Source: Caballeronia turbans
GTDB lineage: Bacteria; Pseudomonadota; Gammaproteobacteria; Burkholderiales; Burkholderiaceae
Length of the DNA: 64,000 bases
NCBI GenBank assembly: GCA_001544655.2
Contig: FCOD02000013.1
Location: 62,001-126,000 of the forward strand
Direction of reading: 5' to 3'
Made by a program: the position numbers and the translations under genes. The notes beneath the pieces were generated by a model. That model was not told the origin of the DNA and did no database searches. It saw nothing but the letters and a program-made list of their open reading frames with translations. This document shows, piece by piece, positions 44,411 to 56,502 of the stretch; position 1 is the stretch's first letter, and every line of letters begins with the position of its first letter.

Positions 44411-45751
44411 TCAAGGACGGCGCGCGCCGCGCATCTGGCTTGTCAGGTCGCCGTGATGCATCGCGAGCGCGCGCATCGACGGCCACATATGCATGTAATG
44501 CACCATGAAGCTGTCGCTGCCCTGAAGCTGGTACGGCGTGTTGATCGTCGTGCAATCGAGAAGATCGCGATATTCGGCGAGGCCGTGCCGTTGCAGCACC
44601 TTGATGAACACGTCCTGATCGCCGCCGCTCGCGTATGTGGACGATTTATCCGCGATCCCGCCGATGGTCTGCTCGATTTCGCTCAGCACCTCGATGTTTT
44701 GCCGCGTGTTCCGAAAGCCCATGATGCCCGAGTTGAACCGCCAGCTCACGTCCGTCGCGATCACGCGGTCGCGGTCCTTCATGAGCGATTCGAGCGGCCT
44801 GCCCTGATCGACGACGAGCACGTCGGCATCGATCCAGAAGACCCATTCGTGTCCGGGCAGATGGCGCAGCAGCACCCACGGCTTGATCCAGTTGCCGCTC
44901 GCGTCCGGGCCGGCGTCCGGCGGCACGTCGCGATAGAGATGGAGCGCATAGCCGTGCCGCTCGCAATAGCGGCGCAGATTGCGCTCGGCGATCGCGCCGT
45001 ACTCGCGGATATTCGGCGTGTAGAGCATCGCGAGCGCGACACGCGCGTCGCCGTTCACTGCCTCGTAGCGCGCTTCGCCGGTTTCCGGTGCCGGCAAGGC
45101 GAGATACGGCAGTCCGCGCGCCTGATAATCGTTGACGTGCTCCGCGAGCAGATCGCGCAGGCCAGCGAAAACCGGCTGATTTCTCGGCGCTTCGCGTATA
45201 TCCGCGAGCGCGAGCGCGAATGCGGGCCATTCGGACCAGACCGGAGACACGTCCAGCGCGGCAAGCGCAACGGGCACATAGCCATTGATCGCCACGTTGA
45301 ACGACAGCGGATCGAGCGCGCGCAGCAACTCGGATTCGCTCACAAGCGCGTGGCCGCCGAACTTCGCACGCTCGCAAAGGCGCTCGACGCACTCGCGCGC
45401 GGCGGGCGTATTGCGCCAGAGCTGGAACGCCGCCATCACATCGACGTCGTGGCTGTCGCGGTACGAGATGATCCAGTCGCGGCTCCCGCCTTGCATGAAA
45501 GTCTCGCAGGGTATGTCGCGCAACAGCAGGCAGTCCTGCGTCAGCAGCAGCACGAGGTCGCCCTCGGCGCTCGTGCGCAGCGCTCGCAGCAGCACCTGAT
45601 ATTTCAGCAACATCCGCAGATGCGGCCAGCCGATCGCGCTCGCATCGACGTATTCGTGTCTGTATCCCTGACGCGCGCAGTAGCGGCGCGCATTCTCGAA
45701 CGACGCGTGAGCGTTACCGTCCGCGAAAAAACTGATGACGTGCGTTGTCAT
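44411..45751 (-). CDS. Two-lobed glycosyltransferase-like protein (GMA12/MNN10-like C-terminal half)
   Basis: 446 residues. The C-terminal half resembles GT34-type nucleotide-diphospho-sugar transferases: VALAMLYTPNIREYGAIAERN, YCERHGYALHLYRD, EWVFWIDADVLVVDQG with the DxD metal site, SGIMGFRNTRQN and DQDVFIKVLQRHGL. The N-terminal half repeats this plan in worn form: ENARRYCARQGYRHEYVD, then LVLLLTQDCLLL where DxD is replaced by TQD. It looks like an internal duplication with one active and one inactive lobe. No signal peptide. Neighbours do not reveal a pathway. Confidence 0.7.
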   Translation of the reverse strand: MTTHVISFFADGNAHASFENARRYCARQGYRHEYVDASAIGWPHLRMLLKYQVLLRALRTSAEGDLVLLLTQDCLLLRDIPCETFMQGGSRDWIISYRDSHDVDVMAAFQLWRNTPAARECVERLCERAKFGGHALVSESELLRALDPLSFNVAINGYVPVALAALDVSPVWSEWPAFALALADIREAPRNQPVFAGLRDLLAEHVNDYQARGLPYLALPAPETGEARYEAVNGDARVALAMLYTPNIREYGAIAERNLRRYCERHGYALHLYRDVPPDAGPDASGNWIKPWVLLRHLPGHEWVFWIDADVLVVDQGRPLESLMKDRDRVIATDVSWRFNSGIMGFRNTRQNIEVLSEIEQTIGGIADKSSTYASGGDQDVFIKVLQRHGLAEYRDLLDCTTINTPYQLQGSDSFMVHYMHMWPSMRALAMHHGDLTSQMRGARRP

Positions 45752-47080: not shown

Positions 47081-47929
47081 CTAATGCCGTCGATACGCAT
47101 CGAGCAGGCCTTGCACGATGTCCGCGGACACATAATGCGGCCCATCGAAAAGATAGGTCTTATATCCGCGATACGCATCGATCTGCGGCCTCAGTTCGTC
47201 CACTGTCGCGGAACGAAACCCGCCGCCCACTTGCGGCCGGAACGCTTCCGCAATGATTCGCACGCGATGCCGCCCGAGCTTCGCCGCAATCTGATCCGCA
47301 TACTCCCGCGCGACGCGCGGCTCTCGCGCATACACGCCGCAGCCGTCCTGCAACAGCACGCCTACATCGCGCGGCAACCACTCATCGAGCCATTGCGCGA
47401 GCGCCGCGCCACCGACATTCGCGCGGTCATACACGCTGATCCACAACGGACGCGGCAACCCATCGAGCAGCGCGCGCAGCGCACCCGCGTTCTGCCAGGT
47501 CGGATCGATCTCGACGGGAAAGTAGTAGCCCGTCACATGCACGGGCGGATGAACTTCCACGAGCCGCATCGATTCGACGAACAACTGCGCCGCATTCGCG
47601 CGCGCCGCCGCTTCGTCGAAACGGCCCGCGAGTCCAACGATCACGTCGCGCGCCCAGGGCTCCTGCCCGATGCGCTCCCAGTCCGGCATCCGTGCCGCCG
47701 TGCGCATCCCGGCGCCGGGCACGAAGGCGATGCCGTCCACCGCCGTCCATTGCACAATGAGTTCATGCGCGCCGAGCTTGTCCCAGTCGCCGCGCGGATC
47801 GGCGTGCGCGTTGTCGGGCTGCCAGACGATGCCGTCGACGAGACGCACGCGCGAGGCATCGGCTTGAGCCGAAGCCGGCGCGAGCACAAGGCAGCACGCA
47901 ATGACGAGGGCGGAAAATAGAGAGGACAT
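47081..47929 (-). CDS. Secreted DUF4434-like (TIM-barrel) protein of the polysaccharide cluster
   Basis: 282 residues. Signal peptide MSSLFSALVIACCLVLAPASAQA, then VRLVDGIVWQPDNAHADP, HELIVQWTAVDGIAF, VHVTGYYFPVEIDPTW, PLWISVYDRANVGG, VGVLLQDGCGVYA and RVRIIAEAFRPQ. Strand ends with W, Y, D and E residues suggest a (beta/alpha)8 glycosidase-like fold similar to DUF4434. The family call is tentative. It overlaps the nfrA stop by 1 base, so it belongs to this operon, at the place where E. coli has ybcH. A role in trimming, modifying or binding the exported polysaccharide is inference. Confidence 0.65.
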   Translation of the reverse strand: MSSLFSALVIACCLVLAPASAQADASRVRLVDGIVWQPDNAHADPRGDWDKLGAHELIVQWTAVDGIAFVPGAGMRTAARMPDWERIGQEPWARDVIVGLAGRFDEAAARANAAQLFVESMRLVEVHPPVHVTGYYFPVEIDPTWQNAGALRALLDGLPRPLWISVYDRANVGGAALAQWLDEWLPRDVGVLLQDGCGVYAREPRVAREYADQIAAKLGRHRVRIIAEAFRPQVGGGFRSATVDELRPQIDAYRGYKTYLFDGPHYVSADIVQGLLDAYRRH

Positions 47930-50352
47930 CAGTACGAGAATACCGCGCCGAAGAACACGCCTCGCGCGCGATCGTCGCCGGCGACGCGCAAGCGGTACTG
48001 CACCGCGACATCCACGAACGAACGCGGCGCGTCATACGGACCGCCGCGGAACCAGTAGCGCGCCGCCACGCCCGCGCCGGCGCCCACCGGCACGCTGTGA
48101 TCGACCGCCGAATCGTAGTCCATGCCGACGACCGCATGCGGAAACACCGTCAAACGCGGACTGATCGCATCGACGCGATAGGTGCGGCCCAGTCGCGCGT
48201 TCGCGGTCGCGTAAGTCGAATCGTTCTGGATGTAATGGCCCGCCTCGCCGTACACCGTGCCCGTCCACCAGTTCGGGACGTCGAGCCTGCGCGTGTCGCC
48301 GAAGCCGTTCGAATACGCGGCGCGCGCGAGCCAGTCGGCGCGCACGTCCGAGCCGATCGGCAGAATTTTTTCGATGGCGAGAATCGCATTCGCCGATGCG
48401 AACGGCTTCACGCGCGCGCCGATCGCCGCCTGCAACGTCGATACCCCCGACGGCCCGCCGCCCTTCACGCCGAAGTTCTCGTAACCGCGCGCGTACACCT
48501 CGAACATGCGGTCACCGAGGCTGCCGAACGGCCGCCAGTACGCCTCCGCGCCCGCCTGCCAGTTGTTCGATACGCCGGGCGTGGGCGCGAACGCGAACCC
48601 TTGCTGCGCACCGTTGCCGCGATAGTTCACCGACGCGCTGAAGCCCCAGTTGCGCGTCGCTTCGGCGTGCGCCGCGCGTGCGTCGTTCAGTGCTTCAGGC
48701 GCGAGCGCCTCGCCGGCGGGCGCGCCCGCGCTATGGTCGATCGCGCGTTCCAGGAACTTCACGCCTTCGTCGGTGCGGCGCAGGTTGAGCGCCGCGTAGC
48801 CGGCGTCGGCTTCGGCCGATGCGGGCAGCGCGCCCTCGCGTTCCGCGCGCGCGAAGTAGTGCAGCGCGAGCGCGCTGTCGCCCGCGCGCTGCGCGATGAA
48901 CGCGGCCTGCGTGGCGGTCATCGAATCGAGCAGATTCGCGTCGATCAACGCGCGCGCTTCGCCCGAGGCCTCACGCGTGCGGCCCGTCGCCGCGAGCGCG
49001 TCGATCAGCGCGATGCGCGGCTGCGGATCGTCGGGCACTTCGGCGATCGCCGTGCGCCAGAAGCCGATGGCCGCTGCGCGATCGCCGCGACGTTCGGCAA
49101 GACGCGCTTCGCGTGTCGCGGCGAGTGCGGGATCGTGCGCGTAGACATCGCACGATGCGCCGAACCGGTCTTCGCGGCATTCGAAAGTCGGGCGCGCGCG
49201 CGGATCGATTTGCACGGTCTGCGTGGCCGCCATGCGCAACATCGCTTGCGCGCGATGGCGGCGTAACGTGATCGCGGCATCGGTGTCGTCGGGGGGCTGC
49301 GTGGCGACGGACGGCAGTGTATCGAGCGCCGCTTGCGGATTGCCTTGCGCGAGCCGCACGTCCGCGACGATCGTGCGCGCGACGCGCGCATCGCGATATG
49401 CGCGTGCGTCGCCCGCATCGGTGGATGCGGCCAGGGTCAGCGCGCGCGCGAAGTCGGCATGCTCTGCGCGCGCGGCGCGTGCGTATCCGCGCAAAGCCCA
49501 CGCGAGCGCATTGTCTTCATCGATCGCGATGGCATCGCCCGCCGCGGCTTCCACGCCCGCGAGATCGCCGCGCGTGAACAATATCTCGATGAGCTGCATG
49601 CGGAAATCCATCCGCGCCGGCGCATACATGACAGCCTTCCGCGCGAAATCTTGCGCCGCATCCAGGTCGCCGCGCTCGCGCGCCACATATGCGGACTTCG
49701 ACGCCCCGGGCGCAAGCCGGTCGCCGATGAAGCGCCGCCGCTCCCGCAAGGCGTCGCTGTCGCCGAAGTGCTGCGATGCGTCGACGGCCGCATCGTATGC
49801 GGCGGCATCGTCGCCGGATGCGGCGAGGGAATCGATCAGCAGATAGCGCAGACGCTCCGCCCGCGGCGCAAGACGCACGGCTTCGCGGCTTCCCGCCACC
49901 GCCGACGCGTAATCCTTCTTCGCGTAATCGCGATACGCCGCGCGCGCTGCCTTCGACGCCGGCGCCGGCAAGTCGTCCGGCACGCCGCCCTCGCCGCCCG
50001 ACGCGATCAGGATGTCGATCTGCCTGCGCCGCGCGGTCAGCGAAGGCGCCGGACCGAGCTGCGCGATGGCTTCGGCAAGCACACGGCTCGCGTCCTTCAG
50101 ACGCCCGCGCGCCGCGAGCGCATTCGCAAGCAGCAGACGCAGATCCGCGACGTCGGGCCGCTGGCGAATCGCCTCGCGCGCGCCTGCGATGGCATCGGCA
50201 TAACGATGCTCGCCGTAGGCCGCGAACGCTTCGCGCGCCACGCGATACGCCGCGCCGCTCAGAGGCAGCTGCAGGGTCTCGTCCGCACGGGATGCCGCGG
50301 CGCCGCACAAGGCGAGCGCGGCGCACAACGCAACGCGAACGTGCGGCGTCAT
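47929..50352 (-). CDS. nfrA: NfrA-like outer-membrane polysaccharide export protein (phage N4 adsorption protein A family)
   Basis: 807 residues. Signal peptide MTPHVRVALCAALALCGAAASRA, about 500 residues of TPR-like helical repeats (AYGEHRYADAIAGAREAIRQ, AAYRDYAKKDYASAVAGSREA, ERRGDRAAAIGFWRTAIAEV), then an amphipathic strand-rich C-terminal domain (WGFSASVNYRGNGAQ, NWQAGAEAYWRPFG, RYWFRGGPYD) ending in aromatic FSY, as outer-membrane barrels do. E. coli NfrA is the N4 phage receptor and the export pore for the NGR glycan. Its start overlaps the nfrB stop by 4 bases (ATGA). The open frame runs far upstream in this GC-rich DNA, but the signal peptide fixes the start at 50352. Confidence 0.88.
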   Translation of the reverse strand: MTPHVRVALCAALALCGAAASRADETLQLPLSGAAYRVAREAFAAYGEHRYADAIAGAREAIRQRPDVADLRLLLANALAARGRLKDASRVLAEAIAQLGPAPSLTARRRQIDILIASGGEGGVPDDLPAPASKAARAAYRDYAKKDYASAVAGSREAVRLAPRAERLRYLLIDSLAASGDDAAAYDAAVDASQHFGDSDALRERRRFIGDRLAPGASKSAYVARERGDLDAAQDFARKAVMYAPARMDFRMQLIEILFTRGDLAGVEAAAGDAIAIDEDNALAWALRGYARAARAEHADFARALTLAASTDAGDARAYRDARVARTIVADVRLAQGNPQAALDTLPSVATQPPDDTDAAITLRRHRAQAMLRMAATQTVQIDPRARPTFECREDRFGASCDVYAHDPALAATREARLAERRGDRAAAIGFWRTAIAEVPDDPQPRIALIDALAATGRTREASGEARALIDANLLDSMTATQAAFIAQRAGDSALALHYFARAEREGALPASAEADAGYAALNLRRTDEGVKFLERAIDHSAGAPAGEALAPEALNDARAAHAEATRNWGFSASVNYRGNGAQQGFAFAPTPGVSNNWQAGAEAYWRPFGSLGDRMFEVYARGYENFGVKGGGPSGVSTLQAAIGARVKPFASANAILAIEKILPIGSDVRADWLARAAYSNGFGDTRRLDVPNWWTGTVYGEAGHYIQNDSTYATANARLGRTYRVDAISPRLTVFPHAVVGMDYDSAVDHSVPVGAGAGVAARYWFRGGPYDAPRSFVDVAVQYRLRVAGDDRARGVFFGAVFSY

Positions 50353-52529
50353 CGAATGCCGGCCCGCGCGAGATAGCGGCGGCGCTGCTCCGCGACTGCG
50401 GCGGTGAGCGCATCGGACGTGATGATCGCCTCCGCCACCATGTAATCGCCGATGCGTCCGTGCCGCTCCGGCCGATAGTCCCGCAACGCGGCCTCGAACG
50501 CGCTGCGCGTGACGAGCCCCATCTCGATCATGATGTCGCCGAGCAAGGGCACGCCGCGCGCGGCCGTGGCGTCGGCAAGCGCCGGCGAGGCATCGTCTTC
50601 GCCATCGCCTGTCAAGACCGGCATGCCGACCGCGCGCAGCATGCGCAGGCCCGCCGCGATCTCGCTTTCGCGCACGATCTGCAGCGCGACCGGGCCGCCG
50701 GACGTCGCGCGCAATTCGGCGAGCGACGCATCGTCGAGCAGGCTCGCGCAGACGAACACGGCGTGCCCGTTCGCATCGATGCCCTGCGGCAGCACGCGCA
50801 GCCGCACGAGCGTCTCGGGCGTCGCGATGCGCGTCGGGTCCATCCGCGCCGCGTCCAAGCGTCCGCGCGGCAGGTCGGCCTGGAACGCGATCGCTTCCGC
50901 GAGCGTTTCCTCGTCGAGCCAGCCGCGTGTCACGAGCACGCGGCCGATCGGCGCTTCGCGTGCATGATCCGTCCGCCGCGCTTCTTCGAGCCGCTCGGGT
51001 GCGATCGCCTGCCACGAGACGAGCAGTTCCCCGAGATCCTGACGCGTGTCGCGCAGGGCCTCGTTGCTGGGGAAATCGTGCATCGTCTTGTCCCATGCGA
51101 GCCGCCGCCCCGTCACCATATGCACGATGAAAAGCCGCCACGCGCGCGCCACCGCCATGAAGTTGATGACGTTGCTGACGACCATGCGCGGCACCGACAG
51201 CACGCCGTGCTCCCAGCCGTAGAGCCGCGTCGTGAAGATGATGCGCTGCGTGACGCGCAGCACGAGCGCGACGGAGTTCGCGGCGAGCAGCGCCTGCAGC
51301 CACCGCGAATCGATGAACGGCGACGGAAAGAAGTCGCCCGCGAGGCCGAGATACGAAGCCGTGGCGAACAGCATGAACTGCACGGCGAGCAGGTATGCGA
51401 GCATGCCGACGAACGCCGTCACCACGCCCTTGCGGTCGCGCATCAGCAGATAGCGATTCGCGAGCGACCCGCTCCAGCCCGTCAGCGCCCATCCCTGCAA
51501 GCCGATGCCGAGCGTCCAGCGCGCGCGCTGCCGATAGGCGGTGCGAAACGTGTCGGGGAAAAACTCGCGCACGCACAGCGGCATCGACAGCCTGATTTCG
51601 CGCTCGCGGCCCAAACCGAACCAGCCCTTGCGGCGCGTCGTGAATTCGACGGGAAAGAGCGGAAAGATCGACTGCATGCCGAGCCGCGTGATGCGCGTGC
51701 CGATGTCGTAATCCTCGGTGAGGCTTTCGGTGTTGAACGGCTGGTGCTGCGTCTCTTCGACGAGCGCGCGGATCGCGCGGCGCGAAAAGCACGTGCCCAC
51801 GCCCGCCGACGGCACCGCGCCCGCAAGACTCTCACGCACGACGAGATCCTTCGCGTGCCATTCCGCGAACTCGTCCATGTACGTGCCGGCGACGAGCTCG
51901 AACCAGTGCCGTTCGAGCGACGCCACCGGCAACTGGATCATGTCCTTGCGCGGCAGGAGATAGTTGAAGAACTTCAGTTCGACGGGATGCAGCACGTCTT
52001 CGCTGTCGTGCATCACGATGCCCGCGAACTCCATCCCGGCTTCGAACTCGTAATGCAGGATCGCCTGCACGAGCCAGTTGAGGCAGTCGGCCTTGCATGT
52101 CGGACCGTCGTGCGGCACTTCCACGCGATGCAGATGCTTGTAGCGATGCCGCATGCGCTCCACTTCGGCGATCGTCGCCGCGTCGTTCTGATACGTGCCG
52201 ACGAACACCGTGTATGCGCGATAGTCGAGCACGCGCACGAGATCCTCGATCATCGCGGCGATGACGTCGTGTTCCTGCCACGCGGGCACCATGATCGCGA
52301 TGGGCTGCTCGTCGCGCGCATAAAGCTGCTCGACGGTGAGCGGCGCGTAGCGGCGCTCGACCGTCACGCGCCGCCAGAACTTGCGCGTCCAGTACCAGAC
52401 GTCGATGAACAGATCGTCCAGGCTCGAAAGCAGAATGATCGCCGCGACCGTCGCGGCCACGTATTCGAGTCCCTGGTAGTACTCGGCGAGCAGAATCTCG
52501 CCGTACCACCCGAGCGCCTCCGGCATCAC
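50349..52529 (-). CDS. nfrB: NfrB-like GT2 synthase with C-terminal MshEN c-di-GMP-binding motifs
   Basis: 726 residues. Membrane segments near 25-45, 370-400 and 410-430. The GT2 domain has PAWQEHDVI, H174-D-S-E-D178, T271-E-D273 and the QxxRW motif Q334-R-A-R-W338. Four C-terminal half-motifs of the MshEN type start near 498 (DLGELLVSWQAI), 527 (PIGRVLVTRGWL), 662 (LLGDIMIEMGLV) and 692 (RIGDYMVAEAII), the RLG-x2-L pattern that binds c-di-GMP. In E. coli, c-di-GMP-bound NfrB makes the N4 receptor glycan from a WecB-dependent precursor. Start may be the GTG at 52529 (4-base overlap with the BcsB-like stop) or the ATG at 52526. Confidence 0.92.
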   Translation of the reverse strand: MMPEALGWYGEILLAEYYQGLEYVAATVAAIILLSSLDDLFIDVWYWTRKFWRRVTVERRYAPLTVEQLYARDEQPIAIMVPAWQEHDVIAAMIEDLVRVLDYRAYTVFVGTYQNDAATIAEVERMRHRYKHLHRVEVPHDGPTCKADCLNWLVQAILHYEFEAGMEFAGIVMHDSEDVLHPVELKFFNYLLPRKDMIQLPVASLERHWFELVAGTYMDEFAEWHAKDLVVRESLAGAVPSAGVGTCFSRRAIRALVEETQHQPFNTESLTEDYDIGTRITRLGMQSIFPLFPVEFTTRRKGWFGLGREREIRLSMPLCVREFFPDTFRTAYRQRARWTLGIGLQGWALTGWSGSLANRYLLMRDRKGVVTAFVGMLAYLLAVQFMLFATASYLGLAGDFFPSPFIDSRWLQALLAANSVALVLRVTQRIIFTTRLYGWEHGVLSVPRMVVSNVINFMAVARAWRLFIVHMVTGRRLAWDKTMHDFPSNEALRDTRQDLGELLVSWQAIAPERLEEARRTDHAREAPIGRVLVTRGWLDEETLAEAIAFQADLPRGRLDAARMDPTRIATPETLVRLRVLPQGIDANGHAVFVCASLLDDASLAELRATSGGPVALQIVRESEIAAGLRMLRAVGMPVLTGDGEDDASPALADATAARGVPLLGDIMIEMGLVTRSAFEAALRDYRPERHGRIGDYMVAEAIITSDALTAAVAEQRRRYLARAGIR

Positions 52530-54748
52530 GCGCGATCCTCGTCATCACCGGCGCGCGCGCGATGCTTCCGGCGCGCCTGGCCCGCGAGCGCGATCAACGC
52601 GAGCAACAGCACCACGAGCACGGCCGGAATGCCCCAGCGCGCCCAATGCCGCGTGACCCAGTCGGCGCTCGACGCGGGTTCGTCGGTCATCTCTTCGGGG
52701 TTGACCGTGTCGAACTGCTTGAGCACGCCGCTGCCGTCGACCACGGCGATATTGCCGCGCGAAAGCTGCAGCTTGTCGGTCAGTACGGGCGCCGCGCCCG
52801 CCGATCGATACACGACGCCGCTCTCGCCGCCCGCACTCGCAACGCTCACGACCGCGACGCGCGAGAGCCCCGACATGTCGAGCAGCGTATCGCCCGCGGG
52901 TGATGTCAGCGAAAGACGCTCGGCCGAATATGCGGCGGGATTCTTCTCGTCGGCGAGCTTGACGTCGGCGGCGAGGAACGGGCCGGCCGGATTCGCCGCC
53001 GCGTCTGCCGCGTTCACCACGAATTTCGCCGATACCGGCGCGATGCCCGCCGCGCCGGTCAGCACGGCAAGGCGCGGGACGCTGTTCATTGCATCGTCGA
53101 GCCAGGCGCGCGGCACGTACACCGTCGCCGACGACGCATAACGCGCCGCCATGCCCGCGAACGTGTTGTCGGGCGGACCTTTCGCAAGCCGCAGATGGCT
53201 CGACGGCAGCACGGCGACGGGATACGTCTGGCGCGCCTGACAGCCGCCGTCCGGCTGGCGGCGGAAGGTCACGCGCAGATCGTTGGTGCGCGCGAGGGCG
53301 TAGCGCGGAATCGGCGCGACGAGACGCTCGCGCGCGCCATCGACGTTGATGAGCTTCGCGCCGATCATCACGTCGTTGAAGTACACGGTGGCGGTTGCCG
53401 CGCCGTTGGAGAGCGTCGGCGAAGCGGCGAGATCGAGCACCACCTGCTCCGGCAAGCGGCCGTTGCCCGAAGCCGCGGCGAGGTCGAAGCGCGCATCCCA
53501 CGACGCGGCCGTCTGCACGTCGACACTGCGCGGATCGCCGCCGAGGTCGGACAGCGCGATGGTGTCGCCGCGCGTCTGCTGCGCCACGTCGATGCGATGC
53601 ACGACCACGCGGTTCGATACATCGATGGGACGCCAGCCGTGCGCAAGCGCGCCGATGCCGCGCGTGTCGCCGACGACGATCATCGCGCGGCCGCCCACGT
53701 GCGCGACGCGCACTTCGCCCGGCGCGAGCGGCGAAGTCAGTTGCGACGCCGATTGCTTGCGCCATGCGTCGAAAGCGGCGAGCGCATCGCCCGATGTGTT
53801 CGTGACTTGCGCGCGCAACGCGTCGAGCGCGCGGTCGATGGTCTTGCGCATCGTCTCGTCGGCGACGACCACGTCCGGGCCGAACGCCGCGCGCGCGCCG
53901 AGCGCGACGAGCGCGCCGAGTTCCGCGTCGTCGGCGATCGCGTGCTTGCCGCCCGCTGCCAGCGCGGCGAACGCGGGCACGCCGCGCAACGGCGCCGGCA
54001 CGTCGATGCCCGTGAGATCCACGGTATCGCCCACGGCCGGCAGCGCCTGCATCACGGGCCGCTTGCCGTCGCGTTGCAGCAGCGCGTCGGTGCGCCAGGC
54101 GGTGTCGAATGCGTTCGCGGACAGCTTGCCGCCCGACACCGCGAGCACCGGCGCGTAAGGCAGCGCGCTCCATGCGGTGCGCAGGTCCTGCACGTCGGCG
54201 GGACTGAAGCGGAACGTGAGACGCGTCGTCGGATCGACGCGCAGCACGTTGCCGATGGCGGTCTGATCCGAGCACTCGCCCTGGCTGACCACCGACGCGA
54301 ACCCAAGCCCCACGCGCACGAAGCCGGCGGAACGCGCCGCGCCATCGACGCCGAGATTGACCGACACGCCGCCCGCATCCTGCGTGAACGCACGCGCGAG
54401 CACCGGCGAGCCGTCGAGAGAAAGGAGCATCGTCACGCGGCCGCCGTCGCCGCGCACATAGCCGCCGTCGAATTGCAGCGTCGCATCGGTGATCGGCACG
54501 CCGGCGGGCACAGGCAGGAAGAACTCGCGGCGCGTATCGGGTGCGCCGAGCGTCACGCTTTCGAGCAGGCCGAGTTGTCGCAAGGTCACGGTGCGCGTTT
54601 CCGGCACATCGAGGCCGAGCCGCCCGAGCGCGCCCGCGATGCCGGTGCCGGTCGCGGCAGCGAAGGCCGCATGCTGCAGACCCAGGAACAGCGCGATTGA
54701 AGCCAGAACGGCACGCTGGGCGCGCCGCTTGAAGATGTCGTTGACCAA
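52526..54748 (-). CDS. BcsB-like periplasmic subunit of the polysaccharide synthase
   Basis: About 740 residues. N-terminal signal (LASIALFLGLQHAAFA), carbohydrate-binding-like domains with EFFLPVPAGVPITDATLQFDG, GVSVNLGVDG, GLGFASVVSQGECSDQ, TATVYFNDVMIGAKLI, LRVTFRRQPDGGCQARQTYP, and a C-terminal anchor (WGIPAVLVVLLLALIALAG). These match BcsB, which in cellulose systems guides the chain through the periplasm beside BcsA. Here it precedes nfrB with a 1-4 base overlap, so it probably serves the NfrB synthase. The start is uncertain: TTG 54748 places the signal near the N-terminus; GTG 54799 is also open. Neither has a good ribosome-binding site. Confidence 0.85.
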   Translation of the reverse strand: MVNDIFKRRAQRAVLASIALFLGLQHAAFAAATGTGIAGALGRLGLDVPETRTVTLRQLGLLESVTLGAPDTRREFFLPVPAGVPITDATLQFDGGYVRGDGGRVTMLLSLDGSPVLARAFTQDAGGVSVNLGVDGAARSAGFVRVGLGFASVVSQGECSDQTAIGNVLRVDPTTRLTFRFSPADVQDLRTAWSALPYAPVLAVSGGKLSANAFDTAWRTDALLQRDGKRPVMQALPAVGDTVDLTGIDVPAPLRGVPAFAALAAGGKHAIADDAELGALVALGARAAFGPDVVVADETMRKTIDRALDALRAQVTNTSGDALAAFDAWRKQSASQLTSPLAPGEVRVAHVGGRAMIVVGDTRGIGALAHGWRPIDVSNRVVVHRIDVAQQTRGDTIALSDLGGDPRSVDVQTAASWDARFDLAAASGNGRLPEQVVLDLAASPTLSNGAATATVYFNDVMIGAKLINVDGARERLVAPIPRYALARTNDLRVTFRRQPDGGCQARQTYPVAVLPSSHLRLAKGPPDNTFAGMAARYASSATVYVPRAWLDDAMNSVPRLAVLTGAAGIAPVSAKFVVNAADAAANPAGPFLAADVKLADEKNPAAYSAERLSLTSPAGDTLLDMSGLSRVAVVSVASAGGESGVVYRSAGAAPVLTDKLQLSRGNIAVVDGSGVLKQFDTVNPEEMTDEPASSADWVTRHWARWGIPAVLVVLLLALIALAGQARRKHRARAGDDEDRA

Positions 54749-54951
54749 GTTGAGTGCTCGAAGTTGACGCAACGGGGCGGGATGGCCGCGAAGGCACACG
54801 CACGTCGCGCGCGATCCGCCTCGATTGCGTGAAGCCTGATTCCGGACTCCCTGGCCGGAACGATCAGGCGCGTGTTGCTGAAGAAAGAGCCGGTGCCCGG
54901 AGTCGCGGCCCGGCCTTTGGCGCGACAGGCTGTACGTACGCGGCCGAAGGA

Positions 54952-56154
54952 CTACGCGAACGCCTCGCCCACGACACGCGTCACATTTTTCGTGGCGCGC
55001 GGCATGACGGGTTTGAATTCCTCGAAGGGGCGGCCCGCGAGCGCCGCGACGATGCGCGCCGAGGCTCGCCCATCGCCGTAGGGATTGACATTGCGGGTGA
55101 ACGCCGCGCGGGCGTTCGTGTCGTCGAGCAGCAGATGGACCGTCGCGGCGATGGCGTCGCTGTCCGTGCCGACGAGCACGGCGGTGCCCGCATCGATGGC
55201 CTCGGGACGCTCGGTGACGTCACGCATCACGAGCACCGGCTTGCCGAGCGCCGGCGCCTCTTCCTGCACGCCGCCCGAATCGGTCAGCACGAGCGTCGCG
55301 CGCTGCAGCAGCCGCACGAAGCCGAGATAGTCCTGAGGCTCGATGAGAAACACGTTCGGCGCACCGCCGAGCGCGCTGATCACCGTTGCGCGCACGTTCG
55401 GGTTCAGATGAACCGGATAGACGATCTGCACATCGGAACGGCGCGCGAGACGAACCAGCGCCGCGCAGATATCGCGCAAGCCCCGGCCGAAACTCTCGCG
55501 CCGGTGGCCCGTGACGAGAATCAGATGCTTCGATGGATCGAGAAACGGAAAGCGTGCGTCGAGCTTGCGGCGCAGCGCATCCTGCGAATCGATGCGCTTC
55601 GTGACGGAATGCAGCGCGTCGATCACCGTGTTGCCGGTGACGAATGCGCGTCCATGCACCGTTTCCTTCGCGAGGTTGGCGTGCGAGCGCAAGGTCGGGA
55701 CGAACATCATGTCGCTCACGACATCGACGAAACGCCGGTTCATCTCTTCCGGCCACGGACTGCTCATGTCGCCCGTGCGCAGCCCCGCCTCGACGTGCGC
55801 GACCGGCACCTGCCGGTGAAACGCGGCGAGCGCGCCCGCCGTCGCGGTGGTCGTGTCGCCGTGCACGAGCACGCGATCCGGCTGTTCCTTGGTGATGACG
55901 TCGTCGATCGCCGCGATGAGGCGCGAAACCAGCCCGTTCAGGCTCTGGTTCTCCGACATGACCGCGAGATCGTGATGCGGCGTGATGTCGAACAGATCCA
56001 GCACTTGCCGGAGCATCGAGCGATGCTGGCCGGTCACGCACACCACGGACCGCACACCGGCTTCCGCTTCCAGCGCCTTGACGAGCGGCGCCATCTTGAT
56101 CGCCTCGGGCCGCGTTCCAAATATGGAAAGTATCGTTTTTCGCTTCGTGTTCAT
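54952..56154 (-). CDS. wecB: UDP-N-acetylglucosamine 2-epimerase (non-hydrolysing)
   Basis: 400 residues from ATG 56154. FGTRPEAIKMAPLVKALE, VCVTGQHRSMLRQVLDLF, RVLVHGDTTTATAGALAAF, VAHVEAGLRTGDMSSPWPEE, LVTGHRRESFGRGLR and LTDSGGVQEEAPALGKPVLV form the full family pattern. The enzyme interconverts UDP-GlcNAc and UDP-ManNAc. In E. coli, WecB is needed for the NfrB polysaccharide. Finding it at the head of this gene set supports a ManNAc-containing product. A 203-base gap (54749-54951) separates it from the BcsB-like gene; I see no clear terminator there, so co-transcription is possible. Confidence 0.95.
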   Translation of the reverse strand: MNTKRKTILSIFGTRPEAIKMAPLVKALEAEAGVRSVVCVTGQHRSMLRQVLDLFDITPHHDLAVMSENQSLNGLVSRLIAAIDDVITKEQPDRVLVHGDTTTATAGALAAFHRQVPVAHVEAGLRTGDMSSPWPEEMNRRFVDVVSDMMFVPTLRSHANLAKETVHGRAFVTGNTVIDALHSVTKRIDSQDALRRKLDARFPFLDPSKHLILVTGHRRESFGRGLRDICAALVRLARRSDVQIVYPVHLNPNVRATVISALGGAPNVFLIEPQDYLGFVRLLQRATLVLTDSGGVQEEAPALGKPVLVMRDVTERPEAIDAGTAVLVGTDSDAIAATVHLLLDDTNARAAFTRNVNPYGDGRASARIVAALAGRPFEEFKPVMPRATKNVTRVVGEAFA

Positions 56155-56502
56155 TAGGTCCCGACGATTGCACAATCTTTAACAATTTCGATTGTATTCA
56201 GACGTTTAGGACCGCCAGCCAACTAAAATGTAAAAAAGTCTAACGAGAACGCGAAGCGCCGGTTTGGCGAGTTTTTGTCCAAAGTCGAGCGGCGTTTTTT
56301 ACCTAACCAGTTAGCTTTCCCAACGTTCGGGCGAGATCGTCGAGGCGAAAATCCGACACTGCGTCGTCGCGTGATTTCGTCTGATGAAAACGCGATATGC
56401 GTGTGAGCGGCTTGCTTGGAGGCGATCGACCATTCGGGAGCTGCGGGGCCGATCGCCCTTTTGAAGGAGCGCTGAAGGACGCGCTCCGAGAACGAAACAG
56501 GC
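56155..56502. promoter_or_regulatory. AT-rich control region upstream of wecB, with two hairpins
   Basis: These 348 bases between the divergent start of wecB and the end of the alcohol dehydrogenase gene hold no gene. The part at 56160-56330 is clearly AT-richer than the rest of the window (TTTAACAATTT, AACTAAAATGTAAAAAAG, TTTTTTACC) and probably holds the wecB promoter and sites for a silencer or c-di-GMP-linked regulator. At 56421-56457 GGCGATCG pairs with CGATCGCC followed by CTTTT. At 56466-56487 GGAGCGC pairs with GCGCTCC. These hairpins may end transcripts from the dehydrogenase side. Confidence 0.5.

Follow-up and report, generated by a model that had tools for sequence, protein, structure and literature searches.

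A putative NGR-type exopolysaccharide operon with wecB and a BcsB-like gene in Caballeronia turbans

According to two studies, infection of Escherichia coli by phage N4 needs NfrB, NfrA and WecB, and NfrB binds c-di-GMP (PMC8669472, PMC8669469). Caballeronia turbans has relatives of all three encoded in one row with a BcsB-like gene, and this raises the question of whether the row is a stand-alone hybrid secretion system with a cellulose-type BcsB, as held by the original prediction, or a member of a wider class, and what it would produce. The locus lies in a stretch of 64,000 nucleotides, which was analysed as a whole (the window; coordinates of the operon refer to it), from a genome assembly of 7.35 Mb in 120 contigs.

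Layout and gene content of the operon

The operon consists of five ORFs, all on the minus strand:

54952..56154, minus strand: wecB (NfrC), putative non-hydrolysing UDP-GlcNAc 2-epimerase for UDP-ManNAc supply (TIGR00236; ATG at 56154)
52526..54799, minus strand: BcsB-like gene, putative periplasmic subunit (Pfam BcsB; ORF start GTG at 54799, true start uncertain)
50349..52526, minus strand: nfrB, putative membrane GT2 polysaccharide synthase with C-terminal MshEN-type c-di-GMP motifs (PRK15489; NF053729)
47929..50352, minus strand: nfrA, putative exporter with TPR and outer-membrane beta-barrel (Pfam NfrA_C, TPR repeats)
47081..47929, minus strand: ybcH-like gene, predicted exported (beta/alpha)8 glycosidase-like protein (PRK09936; YbcH profile comparison; model)
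56155..56502, minus strand: interval upstream of wecB, presumed promoter region (sequence reading)

As originally described, the genes run leftward and the last four overlap by 1-4 bases. Coordinates and start codons give an overlap of 1 base between the BcsB-like gene and nfrB, 4 bases between nfrB and nfrA and 1 base between nfrA and the ybcH-like gene; 152 bases separate wecB from the start of the BcsB-like ORF. A sigma-70 scan upstream of wecB returned no site. The neighbours of the operon look unrelated, with a zinc alcohol dehydrogenase gene upstream and TetR-, GT34- and LuxR/hydrolase-type genes downstream. The GT34-like gene (44411-45751), which belongs to a galactosyltransferase family, shows no sign of belonging to the operon. 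The nearest NfrB loci in named genomes are from Caballeronia, with identities of 95% and less.

The identities originally assigned to wecB, nfrB, nfrA and the BcsB-like gene were upheld by profile scores above the respective cut-offs. WecB scored 458 bits against TIGR00236 (cut-off 210). NfrA, encoded downstream of nfrB, contains TPR repeats and reached 179 bits against Pfam NfrA_C (cut-off 25). NfrB scored 1038 bits against the NCBIfam equivalog PRK15489 (cut-off 537) and 676 bits against PRK11234, the NCBIfam model named for E. coli NfrB, for which the cut-off is 1170; it differs from E. coli NfrB in fitting the former model and not the latter. The fifth product matched NCBIfam PRK09936 at an E value of 1.7e-11, below that model's cut-off, and no Pfam family at E 0.01. 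Profile comparison aligned it with E. coli YbcH (96.6%, 228 columns), and two plasmid-borne relatives matched Pfam DUF4434 just below the cut-off. Judged by these comparisons, the fifth gene appears to be the counterpart of E. coli ybcH, and the locus would therefore be an NGR (N4 glycan receptor)-type operon with wecB and BcsB in addition. The NGR-like nature proposed for it holds in that NfrB with its GT2 and MshEN parts, NfrA, a YbcH-like protein and WecB are all present.

In E. coli K-12, the order is nfrB, nfrA, ybcH, with cusS next to nfrB, and the annotated neighbourhood of 25 kb around nfrB contains neither bcsB nor wecB, in line with the earlier statement that no BcsB stands beside E. 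coli nfrB. Both loci thus have the same NfrB (GT2 and MshEN), NfrA and YbcH in the same order, and dependence on WecB would be expected for the window's operon as well. They differ in that wecB, which acts in trans in E. coli, and the BcsB-like gene precede nfrB in the window. A closer likeness exists to the nfr cluster of Achromobacter xylosoxidans, for which Sellner et al. (2021) describe nfrA, nfrB and wecB together with a BcsB homologue and O-acetyltransferase homologues. The first four are shared with the window, where ybcH follows nfrA without an intervening gene. A 98-kb plasmid of Pseudomonas sp. also carries all five genes, arranged as in the window (L154, 7571-16074); its annotation lists them as wecB, BcsB, glycosyl transferase, N4 adsorption protein A and hypothetical protein. 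Given the Achromobacter cluster and this plasmid operon, the wecB/BcsB/nfr arrangement is already known and the window provides a further member.

Occurrence of the BcsB-like gene among NfrB systems

Of 315 NfrB matches in named genomes, the 80 best were inspected, a selection whose members are all close to the window; each of these 80 loci has a BcsB-like ORF directly upstream of nfrB. These loci belong to Caballeronia, Paraburkholderia, Trinickia, Ralstonia, Herbaspirillum, Herminiimonas, Pseudomonas and Microvirga as well as to several MAGs. Profiles for the other genes matched in 68 (wecB, one a remnant), 78 (nfrA) and 69 (ybcH) of them; some of the missing matches in the stretch examined (11/80 for ybcH, 2/80 for nfrA) stem from contig ends. 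The gene order exceeds chance, as it is found again in relatives with BcsB-like proteins of as little as 35% identity.

A comparison of gene order in Burkholderiaceae, which the original prediction had named as a check, was carried out on 249 genomes. After merging of split genes (two of 95 nfrB rows and two of 55 BcsB rows were second pieces), BcsB-like genes occupied 53 places in 52 genomes and nfrB 93 places in 79 genomes. At every one of the 53 places, the BcsB-like gene was located directly upstream of nfrB. In comparison with the window's NfrB, all 40 nfrB genes without a BcsB-like gene scored at most 642 bits, and the paired ones at least 768 bits, bar two that are broken into pieces. 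Both BcsB-linked and BcsB-less nfr systems are present in 11 of the 249 genomes, for example L133 and L032, which both belong to genome G410.

In an NfrB tree, the BcsB-linked rows formed one side of a single branch (SH-aLRT 99), so that the trait takes one change, and none of 500 shuffles gave a number as low. The tree comprises 69 of 107 rows, with 38 BcsB-linked rows left out by hand, and carries long-branch warnings for, among others, L008-L012 and L130. L008-L012 come with flanks of 1.5 kb only; their label refers to the lack of a BcsB next to nfrB within these flanks, and the genome to which L008 belongs (G203) does contain a BcsB-like gene on a different contig. As the tree has no known root, the trait represents one gain or one loss. 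The BcsB-like gene is thus a regular part of one NfrB branch, and the idea of a one-off, stand-alone hybrid was rejected on the grounds of this conservation across relatives. Many nfr systems, that of E. coli included, have no adjacent BcsB, and its role is therefore not general.

The available text of two 2021 mBio studies (Sellner et al.; Junkermeier and Hengge) yielded no statement that BcsB marks one NfrB branch, and no wecB comparison, YbcH barrel or link to synthases with an N-terminal MshEN. It may be asked why a BcsB-type partner is the rule in one NfrB branch when E. coli has none beside nfrB. The BcsB-linked branch also offers a compact set of five genes, precursor enzyme included, that might help in isolating and identifying the polymer. 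All five genes were also found in the insect symbiont Caballeronia insecticola (L153). A second plasmid-borne operon was seen on a 94-kb plasmid of Paraburkholderia dioscoreae (L155, 7454-20076), near integrase genes and with ybcH between nfrB and nfrA. The presence of the operon on plasmids of less than 100 kb (L154, L155) hints at transfer.

Precursor supply, c-di-GMP input and the predicted polymer

The claim that the locus has its own UDP-ManNAc supply gains support from the host genome, a draft assembly in which the operon wecB is the only wecB found. Junkermeier and Hengge reported that organisms without another WecB have one beside nfrB. Where the locus lacks an intact wecB, a WecB over the cut-off was found elsewhere in 9/9 genomes; where wecB is present, a second WecB over the cut-off occurred in 26/47 genomes and none other in 21/47 (Fisher p = 0.009 one-sided, 0.019 two-sided, in a comparison of draft genomes that ignores shared ancestry and in which the wecB-less loci are not independent lineages). 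Of the 67 loci with a wecB match, 47 entered the comparison, and the remnant in L053 was counted as lacking wecB; four more wecB-less loci (L079, L087, L106, L120) were set aside, their contigs ending upstream. This pattern of wecB loss in the presence of a second copy agrees with a continuing need for UDP-ManNAc. Remnants of wecB beside the other four genes were observed in two Caballeronia loci (L053, 7389-7664; L060, 7425-7496), with another wecB elsewhere in the genome.

NfrB also matched NF053729, an MshE-related c-di-GMP motif, with 69.7 bits in two C-terminal stretches. Alignment with E. coli NfrB showed that its DxD, TED and QxxRW sites are kept in the window's protein, as are D169, D267, W330, L490 and G491; the sixth E. 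coli test residue, L537, is replaced by Ile. According to PMC8669469, these E. coli residues had been mutated by others to show a role in N4 infection. The MshEN motif and the retention of E. coli-tested residues support the earlier claim of c-di-GMP input into NfrB. A search of the window for GGDEF motifs by a simple regular expression gave no hit, so any cyclase would act from elsewhere, and a cyclase partner inside the window was rejected. The same expression matched 7/80 BcsB-linked loci. Two Trinickia loci have an ORF for a GGDEF diguanylate cyclase, confirmed by Pfam, immediately upstream of wecB and in the same orientation (L098, 5631-6305; L108, 5657-6397), which agrees with local c-di-GMP control. 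In three other loci (L147, L148, L149), NfrB is shortened to about 569 aa and stops close to where the first MshEN motif ends; ybcH was not found there in the 16 kb examined, and AlgX/MBOAT genes are present.

As read from its sequence, the operon would most likely serve to make and export a ManNAc-based glycan under activation by c-di-GMP. We consider it probable that the genes encode an NGR-type synthase-dependent exopolysaccharide system of the BcsB-linked NfrB branch, which would work as follows. WecB would make UDP-ManNAc, and c-di-GMP acting on the MshEN part would switch NfrB. The BcsB-like protein would sit beside NfrB by means of its C-terminal helix, take over the nascent chain and guide it across the periplasm, as BcsB does for cellulose. 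The TPR domain and beta-barrel of NfrA would carry the chain over the outer membrane, and YbcH, as an exported TIM-barrel glycosidase-like protein, may trim or release it, a position occupied in the PNAG system by the hydrolase domain of PgaB. Compared with PNAG PgaABCD, the operon has no deacetylase domain and no PgaD, and the synthase family differs. As suggested by Sellner et al., such a locus might offer N4-like phages a receptor route outside enterobacteria.

Alternatively, the glycan might differ from E. coli NGR and consist of another sugar or of a mixed chain, to which WecB would contribute only partly; in that case, the BcsB-linked branch would represent a polymer class of its own. 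The position of BcsB-linked NfrB on one side of a well-supported branch would be compatible with such a difference, and the 11 of 249 genomes that keep both NfrB kinds speak against redundancy. An AlgX/MBOAT acetylation set, absent from the window's operon, is moreover found in 21/80 loci. However, wecB also lies near 12 of 16 BcsB-less Burkholderiaceae loci (L130-L145), the relation between wecB loss and a second copy is in keeping with a common UDP-ManNAc requirement, and the catalytic motifs are the same as in E. coli NfrB. A different glycan thus seems rather unlikely to us.

The YbcH-like and BcsB-like proteins

A structural model of the YbcH-like protein gave a complete barrel (pLDDT 93.7), with the PgaB hydrolase domain among the top fold matches, alongside other families. 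Four acids are kept in 98-100% of 60 YbcH sequences, E. coli's included, and two of them end strands 4 and 7. Clan GH-A glycosidases are characterized by a (beta/alpha)8 barrel in which strands 4 and 7 end in acids, and the predicted YbcH displays both features. It is predicted with high confidence to be a glycosidase-like barrel, a shared fold being no proof of catalysis. Of the original description of this gene as TIM-barrel-like or DUF4434-like, the barrel fold stood in the model, but the gene is not an extra component, as it corresponds to E. coli's ybcH.

YbcH could also serve as a non-catalytic periplasmic scaffold, a role that Junkermeier and Hengge proposed for the E. coli protein and that would suit its dispensability for N4 infection. 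For the window's protein we regard this as doubtful, in view of the near-invariant acids, two of which end strands 4 and 7. Inactive chitinase-like proteins such as 4uri and YKL-39 are also among the fold matches and would fit a scaffold. With the glycosidase prediction, the proposed scaffold becomes a hydrolase that can be tested, and the products of its cleavage would show what the polymer is.

The BcsB-like protein as a whole matched Pfam BcsB (PF03170) with 33.4 bits (gathering cut-off 21); in the genome scan, the match fell into two stretches of 20.3 and 16.7 bits, each below the cut-off alone. The same family was matched by 49 of 55 aligned BcsB-like sequences at E 1e-3. None of the NCBIfam cellulose BcsB models (PRK11114 models) matched the protein at E 0.01. 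Its hydrophobic segments at residues 30-48 and 722-740 would provide a signal-like N terminus and a C-terminal membrane anchor, and a signal-like start and a C-terminal hydrophobic helix are common to it and both cellulose BcsBs of the genome; a crude hydrophobicity scan gave two weaker internal segments (294-312 and 577-595). Direct comparison with these two cellulose BcsBs was weak (hhalign 22%, E 9e-4, 130 columns). A bridge is provided by the intermediate protein L014, which aligned with the window's BcsB-like family over 598 columns (profile comparison 99.9%) and scored 71 bits against Pfam BcsB. From the Pfam match, this bridge and the weak comparison with cellulose BcsB, the protein can be classed on sequence grounds as a putative member of the BcsB superfamily and not as a cellulose BcsB. 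The term 'cellulose-type BcsB' used at the outset therefore had to be given up in favor of a distant relationship. PDB sequence searches for the BcsB-like protein, NfrA and YbcH gave no useful match.

Two true cellulose BcsBs are encoded elsewhere in the genome (755 and 732 bits in the genome scan; 1499 and 1252 against NCBIfam BcsB models). Both genes are followed by a bcsZ-like ORF, identified by eye, and one adjoins a synthase-like ORF; the two loci (L002, L003) are of different NCBIfam subtypes. That the BcsB-like protein partners a cellulose synthase of the genome instead of NfrB would agree with public plasmid records, in which relatives are labelled as cellulose BcsB or cellulose synthase. 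With two full cellulose BcsBs at hand, one of them beside a synthase-like ORF, and with a gene that adjoins nfrB at 53/53 places and whose distant kin adjoin MshEN synthases, such a partnership is highly improbable, and a cellulose role for the gene was rejected. In cellulose synthase, the GT2 protein BcsA is paired with an anchored periplasmic BcsB, and c-di-GMP input occurs through PilZ. The window's operon shares the GT2 synthase, the anchored periplasmic BcsB-type subunit and the predicted c-di-GMP input, but has MshEN in place of PilZ and NfrA in place of BcsC, no bcsZ and a BcsB-like sequence that is far off. That the five genes are chance neighbours without a joint function, as the distance of about 150 bases to wecB and its lack from some loci might suggest, can practically be dismissed, given that genes overlap and that the arrangement recurs in genera ranging from Caballeronia to Pseudomonas and Microvirga, as well as on two plasmids below 100 kb.

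Distant relatives of the BcsB-like protein were found in class-level relatives, where the BcsB-like gene is followed by a GT2 with an N-terminal MshEN (L156, 8503-18973; L159, 8332-17567; L160, 7610-17824). As in the window, the BcsB-like gene lies directly upstream of an MshEN-bearing GT2, and L014 (the same gene as in L156) is homologous over the 598 columns mentioned above; the domain order of these synthases is opposite to that of the window's NfrB. Four of five such distant genes were followed to the next gene, and the fifth, in G121, has an in-frame stop. These clusters possibly represent another c-di-GMP-gated exopolysaccharide locus. We tentatively raise the idea, somewhat short of an even chance in our view, that BcsB-type subunits are a general partner of MshEN-controlled GT2 synthases that form a class of their own, in the single-origin NfrB branch as well as in the GH113-linked MshEN-GT2 systems. 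If so, there would be a second c-di-GMP-gated 'BcsAB-like' architecture beside the PilZ-controlled cellulose synthase, making non-cellulose glycans. In all three clusters, the GT2 gene is followed by a gene for a protein of about 500 aa, and in L156 and L160 then by one for a GH113 protein; L156 also contains a CotH kinase gene.
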